A DNA stretch of 59,465 nt. Origin: Lachnospiraceae bacterium. GTDB taxonomy: Bacteria; Bacillota; Clostridia; Lachnospirales; Lachnospiraceae. Under the pieces are notes generated by a model, which saw only the letters and a list, made by a program, of their open reading frames with translations, was not told the DNA's origin and did no database searches. Position 1 is the first letter of the stretch; the number at the start of each line of letters is the position of its first letter. The DNA lies in assembly GCA_014239155.1 (NCBI GenBank), contig JAAZZQ010000052.1, positions 1 through 59,465 of the forward strand. Reading direction: 5' to 3'. The translations under genes were made by a program, and so were the position numbers. Below, one piece after another: positions 47,833-58,623 of this stretch.

Positions 47833-49518
47833 ATGATGCGTAACAATCAAATGCAGAATGGAGAGAAAAGTAGAAAATACATAGGGATTGGACTAAAGAT
47901 AGGATGTGTAATGGCTATTATGCAGATTTTCTTTGTTGTGATGGCACTTACTATATGTGTCTCTATGTTTCGGAACTTAATTACGGATATGCAAAAGGAG
48001 CGCTGTATTAATGGCACAGATATGCTGGGTTATGAACTTGGAAGGATTTCTGACAGTGAGGATATAAACCAGATGCTGGATGAGATGAAGCAGCATATGG
48101 GTTGTGAGTTTACTATTTTTGAGGGAGATATCCGCAAATATAGCACGGTGATGCAAAATGGAGAACGTGTGGTAGGGACGAAGTTGTCTTCAGAGCTGAA
48201 AGCGATTGTGTTGGATCAGGGGCAGAGTTATGTAGGAGAAGCAGATATTCTAGGTGTTAGTTATCTATGTTCCTATGTTCCCACAAAAGGAGAAGACGGA
48301 AAGGTTAATGGTTTGATTTTTGCCGGGCTTCCCACAACACAAGCGAAACAGGGAACCGCCAACGTGATTAATGTTATTTCTATTTTAAGTATTATCACTG
48401 TCACTTGTTGTGTATTGTTTCTAGCAATCTACCTGACAAAGAGAATATCCAGACCTTTGCGTGAGATTGCCCGTATGGCGCAGCGTCTAGAGAGGGGCGA
48501 TCTTGGATTGGCAAAGGACGAAAAGATACAGGTTGGTATTCATTCCCATGATGAGATTGGCTTTCTGGCGCGGGTTTTTGAGAAAACAATACAACAAATG
48601 CAGGTTTATATTGGTGAGATTTCTGATGTGCTGGGGGCGATTGCAGACGGTGATCTAACAATAAGTGCCAAACAAAATTATACAGGGGATTTTCAGTCCA
48701 TTCGGCGGTCTTTAGAGAGCATTCATTCCGCGTTAAATCATACTATGGGAAAGGTTGCTACCAGCGCCGGACAGGTTTCGACAGGAGCAGATCAAATGTC
48801 CCATACTGCGCAGTCGCTGGCACAGAGTACGACAGAACAAGCGAGCGCAGTCGAGGAGATTTCGGCAACTGTCACAGATATTTCTGAGAGCGCTAAGCAG
48901 ACTGCAGTTGCTGCAAAGGAAGCCGGAGAGTTTGTCAATCAGGTTAGTGAGAAATTGGCGGTTAGCATGGATTGCGTTAAAGAGCTGAATGTAGCAATGG
49001 TACATATTTCGGATTCCTCAGAAAAAATCAACACAATTATTGCCACAATCGAAAGTATTTCCTTTCAGATTAATATTTTGGCGCTCAATGCTGCCGTGGA
49101 GGCTGCGAGAGCAGGATCTGCGGGTAAGGGATTTGCCGTGGTTGCAGAGGAGGTTAGGAACTTGGCTGCAAAGTCTGACGAGGCAGCCAAGGCAACGAAG
49201 GAATTAATTGAAAGTTCTATAAACACTGTTGGCGAGGGCAGCCAAGCAATGATAAAAGTTACGCAAGCACTAGAACAGACCAATCAGATTGCAGATGGAG
49301 TGACGGATAAGATGACAACTGTTGTGGATGCTGTGGAGAAACAAACTGTGGCGATTGCGCAGGTCAATGAGGGCATTGAACAGATTTCTGCTGCGGTTCA
49401 GTCAAATTCCGCTACAAGTGAGGAGTGCGCTGCAGTCAGCGAGGAGTTGTCCTCTCATTCGAGTCTTTTAAGGAGCTTGATAAATTCTTTTAAACTCAAT
49501 GACGAAAAGCGTATCTGA
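47833..49518 (+). CDS. Methyl-accepting chemotaxis protein with extracellular Cache-like sensor
   Basis: 561 residues, GGAGG upstream. Membrane helices at ~20-45 and ~182-204 enclose a single-Cache-like sensor ([53 protein letters not shown]). A HAMP domain follows (~205-265) and then a long signalling coiled coil with the tip [22 protein letters not shown] that contacts CheA/CheW. It therefore reports an outside ligand to the flagellar motor. The adjacent glycan locus may decorate the flagellum, an inference. Confidence 0.93.
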
Positions 49519-49946: not shown

Positions 49947-50891
49947 ATGAGAAAAGCACAGAAACAGGAAGTATTAGAGTTTATTCAGAGTTTGTATCAG
50001 GCTCATGAGGAAATTAAAGAAGCATTAAGTCAAAATAATTGTATTTTAGCACAAAATATGCTTGCCGAATGTCAGGAATTTGCAGTTTCACTAGGAAAAA
50101 GTATTGAAGGACTAGAAGGGCCGGGACATATTACAGTGTCTTTTGTTGAAGAATACTGTAATACTCTTTTTTTTGCTTACAATGAGTTAGACAGCAAGGC
50201 ATACAATGAAAATAAAATTTATAAAAAGCTAAGAAAGCAATTACTAAAAGTAGAGAATAGTGTAAAAAATGACATTGTTGCCAAAAAAGAAGTTGTTTTT
50301 CTTCCTTATAAAGCCAGTATGTGGGACAGCCTTGAGAGTGTTTGGAAGGCAGCAGATGCAGATGAACAATGTGATGCTTTTGTAGTCCCAATTCCATATT
50401 ACGATAAAAATCCAGATGGAAGCTTCCGTGAGATGCATTATGAAGGCAATCAGTATCCAGATTATGTACCAATTACAAGCTATGAGGATTATGATTTTAA
50501 AATGCGGAAGCCGGATGTTATTTATATACATAATCCATATGATAATATAAATCTTGTGACAAGTGTACCTCCATTTTTTTTCTCAGAGAATCTAAAAAAA
50601 TTCACTGACAAGCTGGTTTATATACCATATTTTGTACTAGATGAGATTAAGCCAGAGGAAGATGAAAAAATAAAGGGTATGAGACATTTCTGCACTGTGC
50701 CAGCAGTATTTAACGCAGACAGAGTGATTGTACAGTCTGAGGATATGAAACAAGTATATATTAAAGTACTTTTGGAGGCGACAAATAATGATACAGAGAT
50801 AGCGAGAAAATATTGGGAGGAAAAGATACTGGGACTTGGTTCTCCCAAGATTGATAAAGTATTGAATACAAGAAGAGAGGACTATTTGTAA
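49947..50891 (+). CDS. N-terminal part of a CDP-glycerol glycerophosphotransferase-like glycan enzyme
   Basis: 314 residues. A helical N-terminal region (~1-110, AQNMLAECQEFAVSLG) leads to a Rossmann-like domain: VVFLPYKASMWDSLESVWKAAD, VVPIPYYDKN, PDVIYIHNPYDNINLVTSVPPFFFS, LGLGSPKIDKVLNTRRED. In related Lachnospiraceae proteins this is followed by the nucleotide-binding half (VIFYNTSV...WWRPHPL). Here the frame stops after REDYL, and that half appears at 55437. The truncated protein would lack the donor site. It is the first gene after the strong promoter. Confidence 0.7.
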   Translation: MRKAQKQEVLEFIQSLYQAHEEIKEALSQNNCILAQNMLAECQEFAVSLGKSIEGLEGPGHITVSFVEEYCNTLFFAYNELDSKAYNENKIYKKLRKQLLKVENSVKNDIVAKKEVVFLPYKASMWDSLESVWKAADADEQCDAFVVPIPYYDKNPDGSFREMHYEGNQYPDYVPITSYEDYDFKMRKPDVIYIHNPYDNINLVTSVPPFFFSENLKKFTDKLVYIPYFVLDEIKPEEDEKIKGMRHFCTVPAVFNADRVIVQSEDMKQVYIKVLLEATNNDTEIARKYWEEKILGLGSPKIDKVLNTRREDYL

Positions 50892-50901
50892 TTGATAATT
50901 T

Positions 50902-52260
50902 ATGAAACGAATTTTATTAATATGCAACTATTTTGCACCAGATAATACAATTGCGGCAGTTAGAACAAGTAAATTGGCGAAGTATTTGCGTCAAAATGGA
51001 TATGAAGTACAAGTAATAACAGAAAAAAAAGAGATAAATATAGAGGATGAACTTTTAAAGTTAGATACAGAAGGTATCAAAGTATACTATGCATATCAGT
51101 CTAAGTTCTATAAGAGGTTTTATAATATATATCATAAAATAATTGAACCGCACAAAAAGAAACGTTTTGATAATTTAGAAAACAGATATAAAATCAATCC
51201 TAAAACAGGACATGAAGAATTTTATACTTATGAGGCAGCATATCCTATTTTGGGAAGTTTGGATTATATAGTGCAATTGATAAAACAATATGATTTATAT
51301 TTAAGTGTGAAAAAAACGCTAAGAAAACTTGATGGTTTTGACTATGTGATTACTTCCTATGGGGATATATTTAGCTTTTTTACCGGGAAGTATTATCGTA
51401 AGTGTCATAAAGAAATTTTGTGGATATTTGACATACGCGATGCAATTTATCGGTATAAATTTACACCAGATTATGTGAAATGGTTGGCAAAGAGATATGA
51501 AAGGCAGGTTTGGAAAAAAGCAGATTGTATTCTGGGAGTATCAAAGGGAATATGCAAAAAAGTGCCATTGAAATATAGAAAGAAAACATATTGCTTGACA
51601 AATGGGTATGATATGTCAGATCGGTATCATTTAAATACACAAAGACTGGATTGTTCAAAGTTAATATTTACATATACAGGATCTATGTATGGAGGGCTTG
51701 TCAATTTATCTATATTTTTTCAATGCGTCAAAGATGGGATAGAGCAGGGAGAAATAGACAAAGATGCAGTGGAATTTCATTTTGCTGGAAATGACTCGGC
51801 ATATAAAATATTTAAGAATCAGGCACAAAATTATAATTTAGGCAAAAATTGTGTTTCGCATGGAAAGCTTTCTCATAAGGATGCACTGCAATTGCAGCAG
51901 CAGTCTGATATTTTATTGGTGGCATCACACGATTATCAGAATAATGAAGGAGGCGTAATAACTGGTAAAGTATTGGAATACATGTCTGCTGATAAGCCTG
52001 TAATTGGTCTGATAATGGGAGATATAATGCACAGTGAACTGGCAGATATCATAAGAAAAACAAATTTGGGAATTGCATATGAGGAATCCCATAACGAGAC
52101 GGATTACAAAAATTTATATCTTTATATTTGCGAAAAATATAAAGAGTTTATGTGCTGTGGAAGGATAGAACATAATCCAAATAAAAAAGAGCTTCGTAAA
52201 TATGATTATAAGTTTTTATGTAAGCGATTAATAAAAATAATGAATCAAATTGAGAAGTAA
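50902..52260 (+). CDS. Glycosyltransferase, GT4-like (GT-B fold)
   Basis: 452 residues. The N-terminal acceptor half begins ILLICNYFAPDNTIAAVRTSKLAKYLRQNGYEVQVIT; the C-terminal donor half has FTYTGSMYGGLVN, SHGKLSHKDALQLQQQSDILLVAS and GKVLEYMSADKPVIGL. It transfers a sugar from a nucleotide donor, most likely in surface glycan or flagellin glycan assembly. It starts 10 bases after the truncated gene with no proper ribosome site (AATTGATAATTT), which fits an abrupt junction at this point. Confidence 0.85.
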   Translation: MKRILLICNYFAPDNTIAAVRTSKLAKYLRQNGYEVQVITEKKEINIEDELLKLDTEGIKVYYAYQSKFYKRFYNIYHKIIEPHKKKRFDNLENRYKINPKTGHEEFYTYEAAYPILGSLDYIVQLIKQYDLYLSVKKTLRKLDGFDYVITSYGDIFSFFTGKYYRKCHKEILWIFDIRDAIYRYKFTPDYVKWLAKRYERQVWKKADCILGVSKGICKKVPLKYRKKTYCLTNGYDMSDRYHLNTQRLDCSKLIFTYTGSMYGGLVNLSIFFQCVKDGIEQGEIDKDAVEFHFAGNDSAYKIFKNQAQNYNLGKNCVSHGKLSHKDALQLQQQSDILLVASHDYQNNEGGVITGKVLEYMSADKPVIGLIMGDIMHSELADIIRKTNLGIAYEESHNETDYKNLYLYICEKYKEFMCCGRIEHNPNKKELRKYDYKFLCKRLIKIMNQIEK

Positions 52261-52272
52261 AAGGAGAAAAAT

Positions 52273-53346
52273 ATGAGATATGCACTAATTGGCTGTGGGA
52301 GAATATCACCAAATCATATAGCAGCAGCACAAAACAGTGGACTGGAAATTGTAGCAATCTGTGACATTGATTCTGCCTGTATGGCGGATAAAGCACTTAA
52401 GTTTAAGTTGAGTGATCAAGTAAAGAAGTACACAAATTATATTGAAATGATTGAAAAGGAAAAACCAGAGTTGGTTGCAATTTGTACAGAAAGTGGGAAA
52501 CATGCAAAGATAGCATTGGATTGTATAGAACGGGGAATTCATTGCATTATAGAAAAACCGATTGCGTTGTCAATTAAGGAAGCGGATGCGATTATCGCTG
52601 CCTCAATTAAATACCACGTAAAAGTTAGCGCATGCCATCAAAATCGTTTTAATCGATCTGTACAGATAATTAGGGAAGCGGTTGATATGAACCGTTTCGG
52701 AAAACTTTTTTATGGTACAGCACATATTCGCTGGTGCAGAGATCATGAATATTATGATAGAGCAGCTTGGAGGGGTACTTGGGAACAAGATGGTGGAGCT
52801 TTGATGAATCAGTGCATTCACAATATTGATTTGCTTCGCTGGATGATGGGAAGTGAAATTGAAGAAGTCGTTGGCATGACAGATAAACTAAATCACAATT
52901 ATATTGAGGCTGAGGATTTTGGAATTGCATTGATAAAATTTAAGAATGGCAGTTATGGAGTTGTGGAAGGGACAACAGATATCTACCCCAAAAATTTAGA
53001 AGAAACGTTGTATATATTTGGCGAAAAAGGAACTGTAAAAGCGGGGGGGCAGTCGGTGAATGTAATTGAGGAGTGGCGTTTTTCAGACTTGTTGGATGAC
53101 CCCGAAGAAGTCAAGGTACGGTTTCATGAGAATCCCCCCAATGTGTATGGATACGGGCATACGCCATTATATGAGGATGTAATCAATGCGATAAAGAATG
53201 ATAGACAGCCATATGTTACAGCAATGGATGGCAAAAAAGCATTAGAACTCGTATTGGCAATCTATAAGTCTGCCGCCGAGGGTAAAAGTGTTAAGTTACC
53301 ACTTACAGAGTGCGCAACAATGGATTTTGCAGGTCGGTTTCGATAG
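52273..53346 (+). CDS. Gfo/Idh/MocA oxidoreductase, WbpB/WlbA-like sugar-nucleotide 3-dehydrogenase
   Basis: 357 residues, AAAGGAG upstream. The NAD(P)-binding fold starts YALIGCGRISPNHIAAAQ; EKPIALSIKEADA contains the conserved lysine-proline, and MNQCIHNIDLLRWMMG the active-site histidine. With the aminotransferase and acetyltransferase that follow it forms the trio that turns UDP-N-acetylglucosaminuronate into its 3-acetamido derivative. The 6-dehydrogenase (WbpA type) is not in the window. A run of seven G occurs at 53043-53049. Confidence 0.85.
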   Translation: MRYALIGCGRISPNHIAAAQNSGLEIVAICDIDSACMADKALKFKLSDQVKKYTNYIEMIEKEKPELVAICTESGKHAKIALDCIERGIHCIIEKPIALSIKEADAIIAASIKYHVKVSACHQNRFNRSVQIIREAVDMNRFGKLFYGTAHIRWCRDHEYYDRAAWRGTWEQDGGALMNQCIHNIDLLRWMMGSEIEEVVGMTDKLNHNYIEAEDFGIALIKFKNGSYGVVEGTTDIYPKNLEETLYIFGEKGTVKAGGQSVNVIEEWRFSDLLDDPEEVKVRFHENPPNVYGYGHTPLYEDVINAIKNDRQPYVTAMDGKKALELVLAIYKSAAEGKSVKLPLTECATMDFAGRFR

Positions 53347-53374
53347 ACAAAATTGTGAAAAAGAGGAAGTACAG

Positions 53375-54505
53375 ATGGAATTTCGTGATCTGAAGAGACA
53401 ATATCAATATTTAAAAACTGACATAGACAGCAGAATACAGGAAGTGATCCAACAGACAAGTTTTATTCAGGGAAAGCAAGTGGTTGAGTTAGAGAAGAAG
53501 CTTGCAGATTATGTGAATGTAAAACACTGTGTAACCTGTGCAAATGGAACAGATGCTTTGCAGCTTGCTTTGATGACATGGGGGATAGGAGAGGGCGATG
53601 CAGTGTTCGTCCCGGACTTCACTTTTTTTTCAAGTGGGGAAGTTGTATCAGCAGTGAATGCAACTCCAATTTTTGTGGATGTTGATTCAGACACTTATAA
53701 TATAAATTGCGTTTCTTTGGAAAATAGCATTCAAAAAGTAGTTCAAGAAGGTAAACTTATTCCCAAAGTTGTTATGACTGTGGATTTGTTTGGACAGCCA
53801 GCAGACTATGGAAAAATTAAAGAAATAACAAACCGATATCATATGCTGTTGTTAGAGGATGCAGCACAGGGATTTGGAGGAAGGATTGGAGAAAAAAAAG
53901 CCTGCTCCTTTGGCGATATATCGACTACCAGCTTTTTTCCAGCAAAGCCTTTGGGATGTTATGGAGACGGAGGTGCTGTTTTTACAAACAATGATGAATG
54001 GGCGGACTTGTTGCGATCTTTTCGGATACATGGAAAGGGTGATTCTAAGTATGATAATATTAGAATCGGTATGAATTCCCGTTTAGATACATTGCAAGCA
54101 GCAGTATTGTTGGCAAAGTTTCCAATTTTTTGTGAAAAGGAATTAGAGTGGGAACAACAAATTGCAGCCCAATATACAGAACAATTGAATGAATTTGTAA
54201 AGACTCCAATGATCAAATATGGATTTTATTCTAGTTGGGCACAATATACCATTCAATTATCTAGTCAAGTCCAACGCGACGGACTGAAAAACTATTTACA
54301 AAAGCAAGAGATTCCAACTGCAATATATTATCAAAAGCCTATGCACCGACAGATAGCATTTAAAACAAATAAATATGAAGATAGTGATTATCCCGTTGCA
54401 AACAAGCTTTCTCAAACAGCATTGTCACTTCCGTTTCATCCTTACATGAAGGAGGAAGAGATTTTGCGGATAGTGAATGCAATAAAACAATATCTGAGGG
54501 TATAA
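53375..54505 (+). CDS. DegT/DnrJ/EryC1 aminotransferase, WbpE-like
   Basis: 376 residues from the ATG at 53375 (GAGGAAG upstream); a longer frame overlaps the oxidoreductase. PLP-dependent transamination of a 3-keto sugar nucleotide. VTCANGTDALQLAL binds PLP phosphate, LLLEDAAQGFGG contains the PLP Asp, and K191 in FFPAKPLGCYGDGGA is the Schiff-base lysine. MNSRLDTLQAAVL is also conserved. Works between the oxidoreductase and the acetyltransferase. Confidence 0.9.
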   Translation: MEFRDLKRQYQYLKTDIDSRIQEVIQQTSFIQGKQVVELEKKLADYVNVKHCVTCANGTDALQLALMTWGIGEGDAVFVPDFTFFSSGEVVSAVNATPIFVDVDSDTYNINCVSLENSIQKVVQEGKLIPKVVMTVDLFGQPADYGKIKEITNRYHMLLLEDAAQGFGGRIGEKKACSFGDISTTSFFPAKPLGCYGDGGAVFTNNDEWADLLRSFRIHGKGDSKYDNIRIGMNSRLDTLQAAVLLAKFPIFCEKELEWEQQIAAQYTEQLNEFVKTPMIKYGFYSSWAQYTIQLSSQVQRDGLKNYLQKQEIPTAIYYQKPMHRQIAFKTNKYEDSDYPVANKLSQTALSLPFHPYMKEEEILRIVNAIKQYLRV

Positions 54506-54508
54506 AAC

Positions 54509-55093
54509 ATGAGTGACTATTTTGTACATAAAAGCAGTTATATAGATGATGATGTAGTGATAGGAAAAGGTACAAAAATATGGCATTTCTGTCATATTCA
54601 AACGGGCGCGAGAATTGGAGAGAACTGTTCCTTTGGACAGAATGTCAATGTATCAAATAATGTAAAGATAGGAAGTGGCGTAAAGGTCCAAAATAATGTT
54701 TCAATTTACGAGGGTGTGGAATTGGAAGATTTTGTGTTTTGTGGACCGTCTATGGTTTTTACAAATGATTTAACACCAAGGGCGAAATATCCAAAAGGAA
54801 AAACAGGATATAAGAAAACTTTGGTTAAGGAAGGCGCCAGCATCGGTGCAAATGCGACAATTGTATGTGGGCATACTATAGGCAGGTATGCAATGATTGC
54901 CGCAGGGGCAGTGGTGACAACAGATGTACCAGATTATGCGTTGATGGCAGGAGTTCCAGCAAAGCAGATTGGATGGGTTTGTGAGTGTGGGAAAGTACTA
55001 AGACAAGTTGGAATATGTAAAGGGTGTAATAAGCAATATGTCTTAAATAATAAAACTGCAACAATGATATTAAAGGAGAAAAGTTCATTATGA
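54509..55093 (+). CDS. Hexapeptide-repeat N-acetyltransferase, WbpD/WlbB-like
   Basis: 194 residues, left-handed beta-helix repeats from ~10 to 150 ([74 protein letters not shown]). A C-terminal CECG...CKGC cysteine set resembles a small zinc ribbon, which is common in WbpD relatives. It would acetylate the 3-amino group of UDP-GlcNAc3NA. It starts 3 bases after the aminotransferase stop, so translation is coupled. Confidence 0.88.
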
Positions 55094-55406
55094 AAGATAA
55101 TCATAAACAAAAAGTAATTTTGTACGATACGAGGGGGATCGTGAAGCGGTAAAAAAAGGTGTTTTTGAACAATTTATTGGTATTTTAAAGAATGCGGGTT
55201 TTGGTAGAATAGAGTATAAAGGTGGTTATCCTAATCATATGGAATTAACTATTGCTCAGAAGTATATTTATCAAGCACTAGAAGATAACCGATTGGAAGA
55301 GGTTCATAAAGAATTTTTAAGAAAAGTTTCATTTAATAAAGAAGGTTATCCTATTTATAATGAAAAAATATGTTGTATCGGTGGAGTGTATATTTGTTAT
55401 ATATAA
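55090..55406 (+). pseudogene. Frameshifted small gene of unknown function
   Basis: The ATG overlaps the acetyltransferase stop (ATGA). The frame [16 protein letters not shown] ends after 19 codons. Adding one G to the GGGGG run at 55133-55137 restores a frame that continues DREAVKKGVFEQFIGILKNAG and runs to TAA at 55404-55406, about 105 residues with sensible codons. I do not recognise the family. Either a real frameshift or a base-call error in the G-run explains it. Confidence 0.5.
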
Positions 55407-55436
55407 TCTTTAGACAAAATCAGTGGAGGTATTTTT

Positions 55437-57017
55437 GTGGAGACTGATAAGATTTTCCCTAATAATTGGAAGGAAATCGTTCAAGGAAAAAAAGTAATTT
55501 TTTATAATACAAGTGTCGGCAATATATTAAGTGGACGGAAAAAACATATAGAAAAGATGCAGTGGGTTTTTAGTGTATTTAACGAACATCCAGAAGTTGT
55601 GTTGTGGTGGCGACCGCATCCTTTAGAATTGAGTACAATTCAGTCTATGCTTCCTGAGTTAGAAGAGCAGTATAAGGAGATTCGCAGACAATACCAGGAA
55701 AAAAATGTTGGCATTTTAGATGAAAGTACGGACTTGAATAGAGCGATTGCGGTATCGGATGCTTACTATGGAGATTGGAGCTCAGTAGTGCAATTAGTTA
55801 CAGTGGTGGGCAAACCTGTATTGTATGAAAATGATAATATCTTAGAGTGGCATAAGGATTTATTTTTTAATGTTGTGGATTTTGTGTGCATAAATCAGAT
55901 TGTATGGTTTCTTTCTTCAACCATGAATATTTTATTTGCAATGAATTTGGATACTTTTGAATTGGTGGAAACAATAAAAATTCCATATGGAAATACTCTA
56001 GGGAAATATATGTCATATCGTATAGCGAATATAGAGAATTATCTTGTGTTAATCCCAGGATGTGGGAAGTGGATTATTAGATTTGATTTGAAGGAACACA
56101 AGTTTGAACAATTGGAAATTGGGAATTATGGGGTTTCTATAAAGTTTGGTGCGTACTTTGTTTGGAATGAATTTATCTATATGTTACCAGCATTTGAAAG
56201 CCGAATTATAAAGTACGATGTCTTTCATAACAAAATAGTATGTGAAAAGCAGTTTGAAGATATTCTGTTTTTGGATACAAATATCGATGTAGTAGGGTCA
56301 AATATTTATGCAGTAGAAGTCGGAAAAAATTATATTTTTAAATATGATATACAAAATGATTTATGTGAGAAAATACAAGTTTCTGTTGAAGATATACAAT
56401 TATTTGCAGTTAAGAAGATAAAAGATTTATTTATTTTGATTATTGCAAACAAAAATGAAATTTTGTTGTGGAATGAGAGGGAGAACAAAGTATGGAAACT
56501 AGACGGACTTCCTAAAGAATATTCGGTTAAGGATAGACCATTCTGTGATTTTGTTGAGTATAAGCAAGATATTTATTTTTTCCCTGAACAATCAGATCGA
56601 GTGTTTAAGTTTAATAAAGATCGAATGGTTTTAGAGCAATATCAAGAGATTGCAACAAAAAAGGAAGATGAAATCTATTTCTCACGAGCTAAAAATATTG
56701 GAAATAAGATTTTGGCTTTTAATTGTTGGAATAATCAATGGTTGATTGTGGATCCACAGGAAAACACTGTAAATAGGTATGATATTATTTTGGATCAAAA
56801 AAGACAGGATGAAATTACAAAGTATTCTATATTTGATACAGATGAAAAGTCTGATAAACATAGAAAAGTGTGGGAAGAGGATAAAGATTTTTATTCCTTA
56901 CACAATTATATAAAAGATATTAGTCGTATCAAAACAACGGAACAGAAGATGGAAAAAAAGGAGTCTATTGGGGAAAGAATACACAAATTAATCACAAGCG
57001 ATATCATTGTAACATAA
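55437..57017 (+). CDS. C-terminal part of a CDP-glycerol transferase-like enzyme fused to a beta-propeller
   Basis: 526 residues from a GTG at 55437, with GGAGG 8 bases upstream. Residues ~8-135 (WKEIVQGKKVIFYNTSVG, VLWWRPHPLELSTIQSM, AIAVSDAYYGDWSSVVQLVTVVGKPVLYEN) are the donor-binding end of the family whose beginning is at 49947-50891. From ~150 to 480 a repeated beta pattern with an aromatic/basic rhythm (RIANIENYLVLIPGCGKWIIRFDLKEHKFEQLE, FGAYFVWNEFIYMLPAFESRIIKYD) indicates a propeller. Such two-part proteins occur whole in related bacteria. Whether the two fragments combine to work is unknown. Confidence 0.7.
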   Translation: METDKIFPNNWKEIVQGKKVIFYNTSVGNILSGRKKHIEKMQWVFSVFNEHPEVVLWWRPHPLELSTIQSMLPELEEQYKEIRRQYQEKNVGILDESTDLNRAIAVSDAYYGDWSSVVQLVTVVGKPVLYENDNILEWHKDLFFNVVDFVCINQIVWFLSSTMNILFAMNLDTFELVETIKIPYGNTLGKYMSYRIANIENYLVLIPGCGKWIIRFDLKEHKFEQLEIGNYGVSIKFGAYFVWNEFIYMLPAFESRIIKYDVFHNKIVCEKQFEDILFLDTNIDVVGSNIYAVEVGKNYIFKYDIQNDLCEKIQVSVEDIQLFAVKKIKDLFILIIANKNEILLWNERENKVWKLDGLPKEYSVKDRPFCDFVEYKQDIYFFPEQSDRVFKFNKDRMVLEQYQEIATKKEDEIYFSRAKNIGNKILAFNCWNNQWLIVDPQENTVNRYDIILDQKRQDEITKYSIFDTDEKSDKHRKVWEEDKDFYSLHNYIKDISRIKTTEQKMEKKESIGERIHKLITSDIIVT

Positions 57018-57090: not shown

Positions 57091-58623
57091 ATGTTAGTTT
57101 GTATAAGAGGCTGCGGAAAAGCAGGAGAAAGATGTCTACGCTTTTTGCAATATAAGCAAGATGTGGAAATATGCTTCTCAGATATAGATGATAATAAAAA
57201 AATATGTTGTGGAAAAGATGTGTATTCTATAAGCGAAAGTGTTGATAAGTATCATAGAGAAATCATACACTTTTTTATTGTACCTTTAGAATATTCTGAA
57301 AAGATAAGGAAGGATATTATAGAGGAACTATTGATCGAAAACGTAAAGGAAGAACATATTTTGCTGTTTCCAAATAGAGTAGAGATGGAGTACAAAATTG
57401 ATAAGCTGGCAGACATAAGATTTATAAAAGGATTTTATATCTCAAGTTTATACTTTGAAAAGCTACACTATTATAATAAGGAAAGATGTAAAAGGTATAT
57501 ATCAGATATTCTTTGCAAGTTAAAAGAAACTTATGAGAAAGTCCAATATCAATTTATCTTTACAGGGGGGGGGTATATAAAAGACTATTTAGACAGATTG
57601 AAATTAGAGTCTTTTGAAGAAGAAGTATCTACACATACTGCAACAAAAAAAGTTTACATCGTATGTGACAACAGTACATATAATTGGAAAAATTGTTTTG
57701 AAAAGGCAGGCAAGTCAGATATATTTATTTTTTTATATGAGTATTTAATGCATTACTATTATAAAGATCCAAATTGGTATTTTTATCATTGTAAAGTTCA
57801 AATACAACAAAAGATAACGAGTATTATAACAGGGATTTCTTATATTAGAGATGCGTTGAAAGATAAATCTTTTTTAAATTTAGCTAATTCTGGACAAGAT
57901 TTAGAGCATGATTTTGCACTATTTAAAAAGTATATCAATATGTGCGAGCAAAGAAATATAAAAATAAAAAATGTTATTATAGGTATATGTCCTTATAGTC
58001 TTAGATATTCGATGAAACGTTCAAATGTGAATCAAGAGAAAATATTATTATATGAGCCAGTTATAGAAGGAATTTTATTGAAACAGGGATATTCATATTA
58101 TTATTGGTGGTATGAATACCAAAAGCGACTGATTGATATATTTTTAGATAATTTTGATATTCAGAAATGCTTTTTTGAGCATTATGTACCTCTACATGAA
58201 AAAATTGACTACAAAGAGACAATATTTGATGCAAATCGTTTATCAGAGGAGGAACGAAAAGCATATGAACAAAACCAATGTATTTTATATAACAAGCCAT
58301 ATGGGGAAACCAAACAGGAAAATAAGGAGATTTTAAAAGAATACGTAGTCAGTGCATTAAGTAAAAAGTTGGAAGTTTACTTCTTTATTCCGCCTTATTC
58401 TGAATTGCATAAAAGTACATGGAATAGGGATTATTTGGAAGAAACTAAAGAATATTTGAAAGGGCTAAAGGAAACATATGATATTCATATATTAGATATG
58501 TCAGGTGATTATTTTCCTGATTGGTATTTCTATGACGCGGGGCATCTAAATACTGTTGGGCAAGAAGTAGTAACAAAGAAATTGTTAGAATATATGGCGA
58601 AAGAAAAAGAAAAGTATAATTAG
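57091..58623 (+). CDS. Protein with Rossmann-like N-terminus and SGNH/AlgJ-like C-terminal domain
   Basis: 510 residues, AGAAAGGAG upstream. The N-terminal ~90 residues (CIRGCGKAGERCLRFLQYKQDVEICFSDIDDNK) look like a nucleotide-binding fold. The C-terminal ~120 residues (YFFIPPYSELHKSTWN, DMSGDYFPDWYFYDAGHLNTVGQEVV) carry the Asp-x-x-His of SGNH/DltD-AlgJ-type acyltransferases. The middle is unassigned and rich in tyrosine. No signal peptide. Codons are very AT-rich except for nine consecutive G (57565-57573) encoding three glycines near residue 159. A role in acylating a glycan is likely from context. Confidence 0.6.
   Translation: MLVCIRGCGKAGERCLRFLQYKQDVEICFSDIDDNKKICCGKDVYSISESVDKYHREIIHFFIVPLEYSEKIRKDIIEELLIENVKEEHILLFPNRVEMEYKIDKLADIRFIKGFYISSLYFEKLHYYNKERCKRYISDILCKLKETYEKVQYQFIFTGGGYIKDYLDRLKLESFEEEVSTHTATKKVYIVCDNSTYNWKNCFEKAGKSDIFIFLYEYLMHYYYKDPNWYFYHCKVQIQQKITSIITGISYIRDALKDKSFLNLANSGQDLEHDFALFKKYINMCEQRNIKIKNVIIGICPYSLRYSMKRSNVNQEKILLYEPVIEGILLKQGYSYYYWWYEYQKRLIDIFLDNFDIQKCFFEHYVPLHEKIDYKETIFDANRLSEEERKAYEQNQCILYNKPYGETKQENKEILKEYVVSALSKKLEVYFFIPPYSELHKSTWNRDYLEETKEYLKGLKETYDIHILDMSGDYFPDWYFYDAGHLNTVGQEVVTKKLLEYMAKEKEKYN

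Follow-up and report, generated by a model that had tools for sequence, protein, structure and literature searches.

A GT-B glycosyltransferase encoded as two separate genes on either side of a sugar-gene cassette in Lachnospiraceae

A stretch of 59,465 nucleotides from a Lachnospiraceae bacterium (NCBI GenBank assembly GCA_014239155.1, contig JAAZZQ010000052.1, positions 1 to 59,465; hereafter the window), part of a genome of 4.57 Mb in 89 contigs, carries one two-domain glycosyltransferase encoded by two genes that stand apart, with sugar genes filling the roughly 4.5 kb between them. The two genes are referred to here as the N half and the C half.

49947-50891, forward strand: N half, 314 amino acids (aa), C-terminal end ...KVLNTRREDYL; predicted helix bundle and first Rossmann domain of a GT-B glycosyltransferase
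55437-57017, forward strand: C half, 526 aa; predicted second Rossmann domain with WRPHPL and GD-SS motifs, beta-propeller and helical tail

Residues 1-307 of the N half match two single open reading frames (ORFs) of the window's own genome at 57% and 55% identity, and the C half matches the stretch directly after the N-half match in the same ORFs (open frames of 856 and 857 aa) at 29% and 32%. As both halves match consecutive parts of the same single ORFs they belong to one family, in keeping with an initial annotation of this region which had read the second gene as continuing the first, and the two parts do not come from different families. The C half has a GTG start and its own ribosome site (GGAGG upstream), as that annotation had also noted. 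Neither half gave a match over cut-off in Pfam or any match at all in NCBIfam.

A fused relative (locus L130) is predicted to adopt the GT-B fold with two facing Rossmann domains (mean predicted local distance difference test score, pLDDT, 90), and when mapped through this model the cut between the genes falls in the linker between the two Rossmann domains, agreeing with the domain boundary first proposed. Mapped in the same way the N half would comprise a helix bundle (residues ~1-110) followed by the first Rossmann domain, ending in the interdomain linker at ...REDYL. In a model of the C half itself, residues 1 to ~140 are predicted to form the second Rossmann domain and residues ~145-450 a beta-propeller. 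The earlier description of the C half as the continuation of the glycosyltransferase would hold for residues 1 to ~140, with the rest adding the propeller. Searched against PDB sequences, the family profile A1 gave 0 matches at an expectation value (E) up to 1. In the GT-B fold the active cleft lies between, and is formed by, both domains, such that neither chain alone would be a whole enzyme and the simplest working form would be a two-chain enzyme.

Between and around the two halves lie the following features.

47833-49518, forward strand: methyl-accepting chemotaxis-type gene (labelled from sequence), marking the resident locus
50835-50868, forward strand: approximate zone of a putative recombination joint, codons about 297-307 of the N half, placed by a switch in informative sites
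50902-52260, forward strand: glycosyltransferase family 4 (GT4)-type glycosyltransferase, Glycos_transf_1
52273-53346, forward strand: WbpB/WlbA-type sugar dehydrogenase (Gfo/Idh/MocA), best PDB match 3q2k, E 1.4e-75
53375-54505, forward strand: WbpE-type aminotransferase (DegT/DnrJ), 4qgr E 8.8e-114, WbpE 3nyu E 1.4e-90
54509-55093, forward strand: WbpD/WlbB-type sugar N-acetyltransferase (hexapeptide), 3mqg E 1.2e-58
55091-55408, forward strand: S-adenosylmethionine (SAM)-methyltransferase gene remnant, interior deleted and frame lost
57091-58623, forward strand: gene without assigned function, 510 aa, next in the cassette

The WbpB/WbpE/WbpD-type trio recognized in the initial annotation consists of three adjacent enzymes that all match solved members, of which 3q2k and 3mqg are presumably WlbA and WlbB, the PDB table itself naming WbpE. 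The WbpB/WbpE/WbpD (WlbA/WlbC/WlbB) pathway leads to UDP-2,3-diacetamido-2,3-dideoxyglucuronic acid (UDP, uridine diphosphate). The three enzymes are like those of that pathway but the cassette differs in having no WbpA-type 6-dehydrogenase gene between the two halves, and two nucleoside diphosphate-sugar dehydrogenases over the TIGR03026 cut-off elsewhere in the window's genome are candidate 6-dehydrogenases. The sequence matches point to the trio making a 2,3-diacetamido sugar nucleotide, for which the 6-dehydrogenase step would be supplied from elsewhere in the genome. No ribosome site is visible in front of the window's GT4 gene at 50902, in agreement with the initial annotation; its counterparts in Lachnospiraceae bacterium IMSAGC_011 (L095), in strain 526-35 (L108) and in L102 have an AGGTG-type site. 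The gene in front of the C half, annotated at first as frameshifted, has indeed lost its frame and is in addition a methyltransferase remnant lacking ~1 kb of interior, an intact SAM-methyltransferase gene of 439 aa standing at this position in L095 (15146-16465). A near-identical sister of the window (L091) keeps the remnant as the window does, while in L108 a methyltransferase gene is absent from the stretch that separates WbpD from the C half. The L095 methyltransferase gene has a ten-G run near its start, where slippage would be possible. For the 510-aa gene behind the C half a partial counterpart was found at the contig end of L095, with an epimerase-like gene (labelled from sequence) instead in L108.

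The spread of the split was assessed in the best 80 of at least 566 loci, the 80 named relatives being mostly titled Lachnospiraceae. Here 71 are fused, three have both halves as separate genes and three have an N half followed by GT4 with the contig ending before any C half is visible, while in a further three (L101, L105, L120) the N gene runs off its contig; these were left out of the split count, though L101 and L105 were marked as split in the survey of upstream neighbours described below. Homologues that are naturally two proteins, whose presence in many strains the initial annotation had named as evidence against its proposal, were found in six of the 80, three of them with both halves seen. 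Among the 38 genomes examined from the genus, five (the window's, G036, G006, G025 twice, and G028) have closed N-type frames, 319-383 aa long, with GT4 behind them, with a separate C half visible in three and the contig ending inside GT4 in the others. Across an even sample of 397 genomes of the family, all 67 N-type rows (E up to 1e-60, the window's genome excluded) have frames of at least 438 aa. The order N half-GT4-WbpB-WbpE-WbpD-(methyltransferase)-C half is complete in the window, L091, L095 and L108. A misassembly could be imagined given the number of contigs in the window genome, but the same gene order is repeated in the assemblies of L091, L095 and L108 and an assembly artefact was rejected as having virtually no likelihood. 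For each gene pair among the window, L095 and L108 synonymous divergence (dS) exceeds 1 or has reached saturation, indicating that the split arrangement is old.

The initial annotation had favoured the insertion of a GT4-WbpB-WbpE-WbpD cassette at the domain boundary of one gene, both parts of which would still be used, and the complementarity of the halves, meeting at the linker, is in keeping with this. Against insertion, L130 and L157 have an unsplit gene followed by GT4, WbpB, WbpE and WbpD and then a stand-alone propeller-type gene (399 or 361 aa), such that the cassette needs no split gene around itself. The L157 stand-alone gene matches the long-form propeller profile (probability 96) and not the split-form profile (7). 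Likewise, GT4 stands directly after the GT-B gene in all eight of the 80 named loci that carry it, six split and two unsplit (L130 and L157). A search with the GT4 protein for intermediates found it in 5 of the 38 genus genomes (E up to 1e-60), in 1 of the 397 family genomes (E up to 1e-80), the window's own, and in 1 of 121 and 1 of 7 genomes from the genera of L130 and L157 (E up to 1e-60), again their own, with no transitional layout among the loci read. The age of the split order in L095 and L108 and the separate histories of the halves, set out below, also argue against insertion, which is regarded as improbable.

Trees of the two parts were made by a quick method without bootstrap, the C tree from 141 columns and the N tree leaving out two remote L161 rows, and they differ. 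The split C domains, three in number, group together as a single clade (support 98), while the seven split N rows do not, requiring at least three changes on the starred branches. The window N half is 74-76% identical to fused N domains of other genomes but 70% identical to the split N half of L095 and 65% to that of L108, and over 200 residues it is 88% identical to a fused gene (L153). All seven split N genes, the window's included, close with [RK]EDYL, an ending that the other ORFs in the searched set lack.

The C domains also differ in a DGS insert, which is present in 67/67 short and 21/33 long unsplit C domains and absent from the split C domains (3/3). Its absence, as in 12/33 long but 0/67 short rows, points to the long, propeller-bearing lineage for the split C domain and is a further argument against insertion of a cassette into one gene. 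This bears on the alternative of reciprocal loss in neighbouring paralogues, in which a short upstream gene lost its C domain and a long downstream gene lost its N domain. In keeping with reciprocal loss the split C domain groups with a long protein (L082), though without strong support (80), but 21 of the long rows do carry the insert, no locus was found with both intact paralogues around the cassette, and among proteins other than the split forms the propeller is matched best by the stand-alone propeller gene that occupies this position in L130 (67.9 bits; L082 reaches 56.4). The propeller scores favour gain of a C domain by a propeller gene, while the insert and, weakly, the tree favour loss of the N domain by a long paralogue. 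Reciprocal loss, which is a concrete form of the origin favoured below rather than its opposite, has chances only a little short of even. The deletion between tandem paralogues that the initial annotation gave as its second choice fits the origin of the split better than insertion does, while falling short of proof.

The sequence upstream of the N half allowed the resident form of the locus to be examined. The chemotaxis-type gene of the window is 79% identical over 555 aa to an ORF on contig 228 (L076) of G006, which is IMSAGC_011, and in L076 this gene is likewise followed by an N domain, the last 51 bases of that contig being identical to the first of contig 28 (L153). The GT-B gene continuing from L076 into L153 is fused, with other genes behind it. 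When the window N half was compared with this resident fused gene and with the split N halves of L095, L108 and L102, informative sites in codons 113-297 fell 25:8 for the resident gene, while those in codons 298-314 fell 0:7, all with the split N halves (Fisher p 0.0003, with the breakpoint picked after the data were seen). The switch of site patterns near the end of the N half, together with a resident gene behind the same upstream gene, suggests that a split cassette was grafted onto a resident N domain by homologous recombination. The resident-type fused gene is followed in L153 (1021-10599) by a gene set whose proteins start like nonulosonate-type sugar synthesis enzymes (labelled from sequence), L153 and the window having the same N domain and different cassettes. 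In G023 a broken N-domain piece of 191 aa with a stop inside the match (L080:1674-2249) lies directly before a full-length long copy, and would be a further sign that these genes recombine or decay.

Both halves are conserved. In the gene pairs among the window, L095 and L108 the ratio of non-synonymous to synonymous differences (pN/pS) was 0.21-0.26 for the N half, 0.20-0.27 for the C Rossmann domain and 0.34-0.36 for the propeller, with 0.08-0.24 for GT4 and the trio. Of the 81 N-domain columns in which at least 90% of the unsplit proteins agree, 75 are unchanged in all seven split rows. The 11 columns that are 100% conserved in unsplit C domains (W58, R59, P60, H61, P62, Y79, G92, D95, Y110, G112 and S116) are kept in 3/3 split C domains. 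A further comparison took in the 53 columns with conservation of 80% or more, of which all three split copies retain 38 and some retain five. Purifying selection, conserved columns and the common [RK]EDYL end indicate that both genes are selected as proteins. The suggestion in the initial annotation that the two chains might still work is plausible given that both parts are open and retain their motif residues under purifying selection, and the split arrangement is old, common to related species and probably working.

It could be argued that the halves do not cooperate, the N half being a leftover kept intact through repeated recombination with working copies and the C half a propeller protein with a nucleotide-binding domain acting alone. 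The grouping of N halves with different fused copies, the long branch of the C halves and the presence of two full-length paralogues in the same genome would all be consistent with such independence, but the shared end of the split N genes, the retention of the C Rossmann motifs in all three copies and the selection acting on both halves are not, making this alternative doubtful.

The favoured reading, held with a probability of roughly 60%, is that a ready-made split cassette recombined onto a resident N domain and that the two chains form a two-subunit GT-B glycosyltransferase. The split would not have been made at this locus but would have arisen earlier, probably once, in the kind of cassette also found downstream of intact genes, with the upstream gene coming to end at the linker and the second Rossmann domain, of the long lineage, coming to stand on a propeller gene 4-5 kb away. 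The split cassette would then have spread to several loci, recombining by way of the conserved sequence that codes for the N domain, such that the window's N half would owe its body to the resident locus and no more than its last codons to the cassette. The N half would supply the helix bundle and first Rossmann domain and the C half the second Rossmann domain and beta-propeller, the two docking in trans, and the enzyme would probably add the diacetamido sugar made by the trio, or an adjacent sugar, to a surface glycan.

Several observations weigh against this reading. The model of the C half has intermediate confidence (mean pLDDT 74.9; 54-84 per block over residues 1-130), the split C clade sits on a long branch of 1.11 changes per site, the C-terminal tail is loosely held (pN/pS 0.47-0.58), and 10 of the 53 columns described above are kept in no split C copy, three of these being the absent DGS insert. 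The long branch, changed columns and loose tail mean that the function may have shifted. In addition, the recombination joint rests on five changed codons and one resident relative whose gene spans two contigs, and with only two unsplit loci carrying the cassette the order of events rests on few cases.

EpsE/EpsF and Alg14/Alg13 are two-subunit GT-B enzymes for which both fused and split versions exist (PMC8993221); pairing of the window chains is inferred. As in those pairs one GT-B enzyme is cut between its two domains into two genes (PMC8993221), but in the window the halves are ~4.5 kb apart across sugar genes and the C chain bears a propeller, while unsplit forms are the rule among the loci examined (71 of the best 80). 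Neither half matched the Pfam families of EpsE/EpsF and Alg14/Alg13 at E up to 1. Likewise the window halves gave no match at E up to 1 to PF04464 (CDP-glycerol:poly(glycerophosphate) glycerophosphotransferase, where CDP is cytidine diphosphate; TagF, TarL) and are not counted as members, though unsplit relatives lie near its cut-off of 22.1 bits (L130 at 22.0, L098 at 22.6) and the best member reached E 9.8e-7. UDP-N-acetylglucosamine 2-epimerases reach the same Z at 8-13% identity.

The upstream neighbours of the relatives form a second recurrent feature. In 42 of the 75 named loci with enough sequence (5 of the 80 were too short upstream) the GT-B gene is preceded within 1.2 kb by the end of a TnpB-type protein, in most cases some 450 aa long, with a gap of 0.2-0.9 kb, while the other 33 have another neighbour and the window has its chemotaxis-type gene there. 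TnpB-type neighbours also occur at L002 and L003 of the window's genome, and examples from other loci are as follows.

L095:8158-9528: TnpB-type neighbour
L108:52-1515: TnpB-type neighbour
L106:5612-7045: TnpB-type neighbour
L100:8398-9765: TnpB-type neighbour

All five TnpB-type proteins scanned score over the cut-off for PF07282, and the two scanned with the TnpB profile stayed below that profile's cut-off of 100 bits, at 60 and 48.5. No acid was found at the three expected RuvC catalytic positions in any of 41 aligned proteins, the third position being aligned to solved Cas12f/TnpB-type chains and the first two placed by known motifs. The window, L095, L108 and L106 gave no Rfam match at gathering score, no search for guide RNAs having been made. 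In the absence of the RuvC acids these proteins are like TldR, the nuclease-dead TnpB repressors (PMC13418256), in the main text of which paper the term "glycosyl" does not occur. The TnpB-type neighbours may represent TldR-like RNA-guided regulators of a kind linked to glycosyltransferases. Also upstream of the GT-B gene, L106 (4773-5408), L128 (9187-9801) and L148 (8882-9490) have genes that start like IS607-type serine recombinases (labelled from sequence), which suggests that these loci adjoin IS607-like elements. Among the paper titles listed in a literature search, none dealt with this gene split or with TnpB beside such glycosyltransferases.

A broader and more speculative proposal, thought unlikely, is that the N domain serves as a shared recombining anchor to which cassettes bring interchangeable C domains, giving a mix-and-match two-chain system that would diversify the surface glycans of Lachnospiraceae with nuclease-dead TnpB-type proteins on guard at many loci. 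At the level of the favoured reading, the window offers a naturally occurring two-chain form of a GT-B family whose members are mostly single chains, and the genus also holds fused relatives for comparison. It is a caution, too, against taking any gene found split around a cassette as a sign of insertion. The evidence suggests that a cut enzyme has apparently moved inside a ready-made cassette and been grafted onto a resident N domain, which would be a possible route to new surface sugars.

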